From Pseudoxanthomonas suwonensis 11-1 (lineage in GTDB: Bacteria > Pseudomonadota > Gammaproteobacteria > Xanthomonadales > Xanthomonadaceae), in NCBI RefSeq assembly GCF_000185965.1, contig NC_014924.1:496001-560000 (forward strand): a stretch of DNA of 64,000 nt, in the 5' to 3' direction. Under the pieces are notes generated by a model. That model was not told the origin of the DNA. It did no database searches and saw only the letters and a program-made list of their open reading frames with translations. This document shows positions 47,826 through 49,433 of the stretch, one piece after another (the stretch's first letter is position 1; every line of letters starts with the position of its first letter). The translations under genes were made by a program, and so were the position numbers.

Positions 47826-49271
<1,446 letters not shown>

Positions 49272-49308
49272 TGCAATGCTCCGGAGGAGGGGGGAATCCC
49301 CAGTGGTC

Positions 49309-49418
49309 CGGGCGCCGTTGTCGCGGTGAAGCGCGTCGAGCCTGGCCAGGATCCCGGCCCGCAGGGCGGGCGGTGGCGGAGTGTCCGCGCATTCCATGGT
49401 CGCAGCGCCCCTCGACGG
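49309..49418 (-). promoter_or_regulatory. S-adenosylhomocysteine (SAH) riboswitch
   Basis: In the ahcY leader (minus strand), P1 is CGTCGAG (49417-49411) with CTCGACG (49340-49334). The core GGGCGCTGCG (49410-49401) and the conserved CCAGG (49345-49341) are in the expected order. P2 pairs CCA-U-GGA (49399-49393) with TCCTGG (49351-49346). The pseudoknot pairs GGGCGC (49410-49405) with GCGCCC (49315-49310) after AACG. The Ralstonia SAH aptamer known from structural work has GAGCGC and GCGCUC at these places, so the pairing is kept by compensatory change. An anti-Shine-Dalgarno CTCC (49289-49286) next to GGAG (49282-49279) suggests translational control that opens on SAH binding. Confidence 0.92.
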
Positions 49419-49427
49419 CGCCGGCGC

Positions 49428-49433
49428 ATTATA
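49428..49433 (-). promoter_or_regulatory. ahcY promoter -10 element
   Basis: A perfect TATAAT on the minus strand, about 10 bases upstream of the riboswitch P1 stem, so transcription would begin at about 49421. No good -35 is seen at 17 bp. The position fits a riboswitch transcript start very well. Confidence 0.65.

Follow-up and report, generated by a model that had tools for sequence, protein, structure and literature searches.

The leader of ahcY, on the minus strand of the 64,000-nucleotide stretch of Pseudoxanthomonas suwonensis 11-1 DNA analysed here (the window), raises the question of whether the region between a TATAAT hexamer and the start codon constitutes an S-adenosylhomocysteine (SAH) riboswitch and, if so, in which direction and at which level it would control the gene. 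Riboswitches of this class bind SAH and discriminate against SAM, and SAH raises expression; the founding paper (Wang 2008) reportedly describes, by its title, a class that activates genes.

An SAH aptamer in the ahcY leader

Based on its sequence, the minus-strand segment 49419-49303, which lies downstream of the TATAAT and upstream of the start codon of ahcY, is a predicted SAH riboswitch aptamer of the RF01057 class. The features of the leader are as follows.

49433-49428, minus strand: TATAAT, a -10-like hexamer (sequence reading; GATATAAT without a mismatch in 12 of the 16 leaders from the genus)
49419-49303, minus strand: aptamer, Rfam RF01057 match, model positions 1-78 of 78, 34.0 bits
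49417-49411, minus strand: P1 5' strand CGUCGAG, 7 pairs (sequence reading and family covariation)
49410-49405, minus strand: pseudoknot 5' strand GGGCGC (standard pairs in 177 of 177 leaders, partly set by the search pattern)
49399-49393, minus strand: P2 5' strand CCA-U-GGA, one bulged U (sequence, Rfam alignment and fold)
49392-49352, minus strand: P2 apical insert, 41 nt, two small hairpins predicted (RNAfold of the P2 region)
49351-49346, minus strand: P2 3' strand UCCUGG (sequence, Rfam alignment and fold)
49345-49341, minus strand: CCAGG (sequence reading)
49340-49334, minus strand: P1 3' strand CUCGACG (sequence reading and family covariation)
49315-49310, minus strand: pseudoknot 3' strand GCGCCC, can pair with GGGCGC at 49410-49405
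49311-49307, minus strand: putative anti-Shine-Dalgarno CCGGA, 5 pairs, its first two bases being the last two of the pseudoknot (covariation, 125 unique leaders)
49301-49291, minus strand: hairpin GGGG-AUU-CCCC, between anti-Shine-Dalgarno and Shine-Dalgarno (sequence reading)
49285-49281, minus strand: UCCGG, predicted partner of the anti-Shine-Dalgarno, its GG being the start of GGAG (covariation and folding)
49282-49279, minus strand: Shine-Dalgarno GGAG, 7 nt upstream of the start codon (sequence reading)
49271-49269, minus strand: ahcY start codon (sequence reading)
49271-47826, minus strand: ahcY, S-adenosylhomocysteine hydrolase, 481 aa (Pfam AdoHcyase, E 4.7e-149)

Read along the minus strand, the leader runs from TATAAT through P1, GGGCGC, UGCGA, P2 with its insert and CCAGG to the P1 3' strand, followed by a short linker, CAACGGCGCCCGG, the small hairpin, CUCCGGAG and, at 49271, the start codon. 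The conserved core elements GAGGNGCGCUGC, CCAGGCUCG and AACGGCGC are all present in the RF01057 alignment of the leader, and P1, P2 and the pseudoknot are all able to form, as judged from the sequence, the Rfam alignment and family comparison. The gene downstream of the aptamer encodes an SAH-recycling enzyme, as identified by the Pfam AdoHcyase match. A first-pass annotation had described this layout (a 7-bp P1, the core, a once-bulged P2, CCAGG and GGGCGC/GCGCCC), and each part was located on the minus strand within the coordinates it gave; its assignment of class, target gene and strand agrees with the Rfam and Pfam matches, and the perfect TATAAT which it placed upstream of the aptamer can be read at 49433-49428. 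Of the 177 family leaders, 151 have a TATAAT-like hexamer upstream of the core and no more than 45 nt from it, the median distance being 20 nt. A promoter search of the ahcY leader did not find a sigma-70 pair with a -35 box. Transcription would be expected to start at about 49422-49419, just upstream of P1. Additionally, the hairpin at 49301-49291 varies in the genus, being GGGG/CCCC in the window and two further leaders (L098 and L104; 3/16) and GCGAG/CUCGC in nine of the 16.

Covariance-model score and distribution of the element

The aptamer scored 34.0 bits against RF01057, with an E-value of 1.1e-4 in the 501-base leader and of 0.015 over the 64-kb window, where it is the second-listed row at a laxer threshold. 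In the 3.42-Mb genome it is the best RF01057 place (E 1.8e-4), the runner-up reaching 21.1 bits. The gathering score of 37, a curated threshold rather than a biological feature, is not reached by the aptamer of the window, while nine of the 17 genus genomes do reach it; because 34.0 bits falls under this cut-off, the default Rfam scan of the window returned a single tRNA and not the aptamer. The first-pass annotation had anticipated a high-scoring minus-strand hit; the strand and place were as expected (49419-49303), but the score lies just below the cut-off. No match to the SAM/SAH riboswitch model RF01727 was found in the leader up to E 10, and a plasmid search with the leader as query gave no match.

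In the Rfam alignment, some P1 and P2 pairs of the window leader are flagged as non-standard. The 41-nt insert was considered as a cause of the low score and rejected, as bit score and P2 length are unrelated among 16 genus leaders (rho 0.06); one leader (L089) has a P2 longer than that of the window, yet scores 51.8 bits. Apart from the aptamer, the genome gives 12 RF01057 rows at E<=10, none above 21.1 bits, and these were likewise set aside: 10 of 14 control genomes also give matches at that threshold, and the best two of the 12 (L002 and L003) lack the full core on reading. Other sub-threshold Rfam rows of the window fall under their own cut-offs and were taken as chance. Among the side observations is an ASdes match at 11867-11801 of the window, minus strand (27.8 of 40 bits, E 0.033), which is probably due to chance.

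RF01057 matches at E<=0.05 were obtained in 17 of 17 genus genomes, that of the window included, and therefore the aptamer is not considered a chance match. The best match per genome ranged from 30.4 to 51.8 bits, with nine genomes over the cut-off and eight under it, and all of them, including those under the cut-off, keep the element before ahcY. Second, weak matches in two genus genomes (L105 and L106) lack parts of the core and were taken as chance. The element of the window is thus ordinary but easily missed, since the default Rfam threshold drops it along with others, eight of the 17 genus genomes in all.

At family level, 287 of 296 sampled genomes gave a match at E<=0.02, of which 280 were over the cut-off, as opposed to none of 14 control genomes at the same threshold. 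Three of the nine misses were recovered, two (G067 and G151) in a second search with laxer filters and one (G287) by eye, where the element carries a long P2 (L245), and counting these the element is present in at least 290 of the 296 genomes. As regards the others, ahcY is only partial and at a contig end in G134 and G288, and was not found at E<=1e-30 in G116, G157 and G240. In the last one, G162 (L244), a metK-like reading frame (identified by eye) stands a short way upstream of ahcY, and there is no SAH riboswitch there; in this genome the regulation of ahcY would have been replaced or lost. The element is ordinary for Xanthomonadaceae, while the large P2 arm is unusual.

For the comparisons below, 192 loci were taken in, of which 14 failed the core pattern and one (L099) had no start codon that could be found, leaving 177 leaders. 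Those left out were five ahcY leaders whose core reads GCCAAGG or whose P2 is very long, their pseudoknot strands being the same (L015, L163, L166, L174 and L175), one locus with no core before ahcY (L060), five variant aptamers (L176-L180) and three second family matches (L181-L183), weak and with an incomplete core, which were taken as chance. Among the named gammaproteobacterial loci, 36 of 38 fit the core pattern, the two exceptions being L015, with an element of deviating core, and L060, without one. As several genomes occur twice among the 177 leaders, statistics were calculated on 125 unique segment pairs or on one leader per genus, the latter drawn from 141 loci with a genus label (46 genera).

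Covariation of P1 and the pseudoknot, and the P2 arm

P1 covaries across the 177 family leaders: its fifth pair is C-G in 135, U-A in 27 and U-G in 10, and its seventh is C-G in 112 and U-A in 24. The pseudoknot had been described as covarying, which applies to one pair. Within the family no pseudoknot pair changed on both sides over the 177 leaders, each of the six pairs being identical in 175-177 of them and the remainder G-U; since the selection patterns fix these bases in part, as they do the G of CAGG, the 177/177 counts for them arise partly by construction. At the second pair, however, A-U would still have passed the pattern; this is the pair for which both bases in the window (G-C in GGGCGC/GCGCCC) depart from the Rfam consensus (A-U in GAGCGC/GCGCUC). 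Outside the family, L266 and L267, both ahcY leaders of gammaproteobacteria, have the consensus form. In the sequences compared, covariation of the predicted pseudoknot is that of one pair, between groups.

The long P2 apical loop remarked upon at first reading does measure 41 nt, but it is no lone oddity: in RNAfold predictions of the P2 region, a pair of hairpins forms within the insert in 14 of the 16 leaders from the genus, that of the window included, and in the centroid structure of the whole leader these two hairpins are the only helices. The same two-hairpin P2 is predicted in Xanthomonas leaders L019, L023 and L025, in two leaders of genus g15 and in some leaders of other genera, while it is absent from Xanthomonas albilineans (L010) and from two leaders of the genus (L090 and L097); many genera have a single hairpin in a P2 region of 15-40 nt. 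When 14 P2 arms of the genus were aligned with MAFFT, the result was too gapped for a covariation count, and the two-hairpin arm therefore rests on single-sequence folds. As modelled, it looks like a lineage-specific elaboration, and the large insert is most likely a peripheral arm that would have no role in ligand recognition.

Pairing of the pseudoknot tail with the ribosome site

The bases that follow the pseudoknot 3' strand and those flanking the Shine-Dalgarno change together among family leaders, in combinations such as CCGGUUU/AAACCGG, CCGUGAU/AUCACGG, CCGUA/UACGG and CCGGUG/CACCGG. In one fixed register, the mean helix across the 125 unique leaders is 4.86 pairs, and 107 of them can form at least four. 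Shuffling the partners gives a mean of 3.68 (sd 0.085), and the highest value in 2000 shuffles was 4.02. The fourth pair is G-C in 64 leaders, U-A in 41, A-U in five and unpaired in 15, and sliding the register by one to three positions lowers the paired fraction from 0.65 to 0.19-0.42. Such shuffles leave some relatedness in, which the one-per-genus test reduces; with one leader for each of the 46 genera the means were the same, and in 200 repeats none of 200 shuffles reached the observed mean. Sequence comparison thereby establishes the predicted aptamer, its place and the covarying pairing of the pseudoknot tail with the Shine-Dalgarno flank, and the strong covariation of this putative anti-Shine-Dalgarno supports a switch in which SAH would turn translation on.

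An anti-Shine-Dalgarno had been proposed adjacent to the ribosome site. The best-supported one overlaps the pseudoknot 3' strand and is not adjacent to that site. A CUCC right beside GGAG, perhaps the sequence originally meant, occurs in 14 of the 177 leaders, within the genus in the window and L104, and is not family-wide.

The two C's common to both helices would make an SAH-stabilised pseudoknot and a closed ribosome site mutually exclusive, and SAH should thus turn translation on. Without SAH, the pseudoknot would be open and its tail (49311-49307) would keep the ribosome site shut. Upon the predicted binding of SAH, the pseudoknot would close and reclaim the two shared C's, the anti-Shine-Dalgarno pairing would be weakened, and ribosomes would translate SAH hydrolase, the enzyme that clears SAH. 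The idea that SAH binding opens translation was already part of the first-pass annotation and is the best-supported mechanism, by virtue of the covariation in 125 leaders. Overall, we consider it probable (approximately 0.82) that the ahcY leader contains an RF01057-class SAH riboswitch that controls the gene in cis, as an SAH-on translational switch. In the 125 unique leaders, the ribosome site has evolved in concert with the bases immediately 3' of the pseudoknot, which makes the proposed on-switch testable by two-base mutations.

Energy modelling of the on state gave a mixed picture. In RNAfold calculations for the window, the C-G pairs of the predicted helix have a probability of 0.99 with 3 or 12 nt of the gene included and of 0.76 with 33 nt. 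When the two shared C's were withheld, the modelled openness of the window GGAG rose from 0.43 to 0.56 (3 nt of gene) and from 0.37 to 0.47 (12 nt), while with 33 nt it fell from 0.318 to 0.008 by pairing with the coding region; across the 177 leaders, GGAN became more open in 114, 128 and 77, respectively. Furthermore, the whole leader folds no better than shuffled sequences (z 0.37), and the aptamer does not appear in its minimum-energy fold, pseudoknots being outside the fold model. Because accessibility modelling was mixed and the leader is no stabler than shuffles, the on-switch is argued from comparison and not from energy.

The failure of the ribosome site to open cleanly in the model with 33 nt of gene would suit a real aptamer that regulates mainly through mRNA decay or at transcription (e.g. 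Rho-dependent), the pairing at the Shine-Dalgarno having a secondary part. Such an arrangement is unlikely, given that no intrinsic terminator or terminator-like site was found in the leader and that the Shine-Dalgarno pairing covaries so strongly. The score below 37 bits and the non-standard pairs in P1 and P2, together with the fact that insert length does not account for the score, could alternatively be taken as loss of function in a degenerate, non-binding aptamer. This is rather improbable: the core bases are the same as in other family leaders (the patterns fix part of them), and the eight genus genomes below the cut-off all retain the element before ahcY.

That there is no RNA element at all, and that the leader instead encodes an N-terminal extension of AhcY, is suggested by a 523-aa open frame beginning at the in-frame ATG at 49397. 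This ATG falls inside P2, however, and the leaders of relatives carry a start codon corresponding to 49271 behind GGA(G), at a distance from the core that varies, which makes a coding leader highly improbable. An SAH-responsive translational switch remains the preferred interpretation of the leader.

Variant SAH-like aptamers in sister genera

In some sister genera, a second RF01057 match represents a variant that keeps P1, P2, the GGGYGC core, the pseudoknot and the overlap with the Shine-Dalgarno, but has CCACGCUCG or UCACGCUCG in place of CCAGGCUCG and AAGGGCGC in place of AACGGCGC. In effect, the G of CCAGG and the C of AACGG are exchanged for C and G. Both bases are kept in the 177 ahcY leaders, the G by selection pattern, while the C was free to vary in one of the patterns. 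Five swapped sequences, themselves first found with the unswapped Rfam model, were used to build a variant model (R1); of 395 family genomes searched with it, 16 carry the variant, with scores of 56.8-94.6 bits, and all other rows scored 50.5 bits or less. Both exchanges occur in all 16 (CACG with AAGGG, or AAGCG in L259), a set that leans towards the swap because the model was built from swapped sequences. The variants precede two types of gene.

ATP-grasp-like genes (13 variants): L176, L177, L179, L248, L249, L251, L252 and L254-L259
MOSC genes (3 variants): L178, L250 and L253

The variant matches lie from locus position 1501 on, that of L259 being at 644-720. The ATP-grasp-like gene of L177 has D-cycloserine synthetase DcsG (PDB 6jil) as its best named relative, at 174.7 bits against a cut-off of 360, and gave no Pfam family; neither the ATP-grasp nor the MOSC genes have an evident part in SAH recycling. 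In the 13 ATP-grasp variants, the pseudoknot strand runs into CCUCC, which faces a ribosome-site GGAGG a few bases on. Two further observations concern the neighbouring frames: a gamma-glutamylcyclotransferase/AIG2-like frame, recognised by eye, lies behind the ATP-grasp-like gene in L269 (5082-5531) and in L176, and the MOSC gene of L178 is in two frames, reflecting either a broken gene or a sequencing error.

Fifteen of the 16 variant genomes were within the 296-genome family search, each with two or more RF01057 matches, and in six (G153, G268, G136, G026, G123 and G193) the other match, on reading, is an ahcY leader. Model R1 found no variant in the genome of the window at E<=0.01, and across 369 genomes of the bacterial class it retrieved only two ahcY elements at E<=1e-5. 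Among the matches listed in literature searches, none on SAH riboswitch and MOSC dealt with such a variant (the term also matches 'Moscow'), and none on variant riboswitches and S-adenosylhomocysteine named a variant of the SAH aptamer. We tentatively propose that the SAH aptamer scaffold has split within the family into a second riboswitch class, a suggestion that could well prove wrong. The swapped G/C pair may change the ligand, and the variants in sister genera would constitute a good test of how an aptamer does so.

Comparison with known systems

The presence of this riboswitch class in ahcY leaders of Xanthomonadales is already published: as set out in Leyn 2014 (PMC4239095), every genome studied in seven proteobacterial lineages has an SAH riboswitch before ahcY, and the entry for Xanthomonadales gives three of four with an SAH riboswitch and metF outside the operon. 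The window agrees with the latter, as metF (46129-45275, minus strand) is not in the ahcY operon and plus-strand genes lie between them. Full-text literature searches on the SAH riboswitch showed no title on Xanthomonadaceae that was noticed among the matches listed. With the RF01057 elements placed before ahcY in beta- and gammaproteobacteria in PMC4239095, the window shares the target gene, P1, CCAGGCUCG, AACGGCGC, pseudoknot potential and the full model length; it differs in the 41 nt inside P2, where the RF01057 model has 4 nt. The SAH riboswitch of Ralstonia solanacearum, known from the crystal structure of a 54-nt construct (3NPQ; PMC7357161), is of the same class by name. The SAM/SAH riboswitch RF01727, according to PMC7367207 and PMC2864571, is likewise a pseudoknot RNA, with SAH among its ligands and the ribosome site as its target; unlike the switch proposed for the ahcY leader, however, it is located before metK and constitutes an off switch, its ligand closing the ribosome site.
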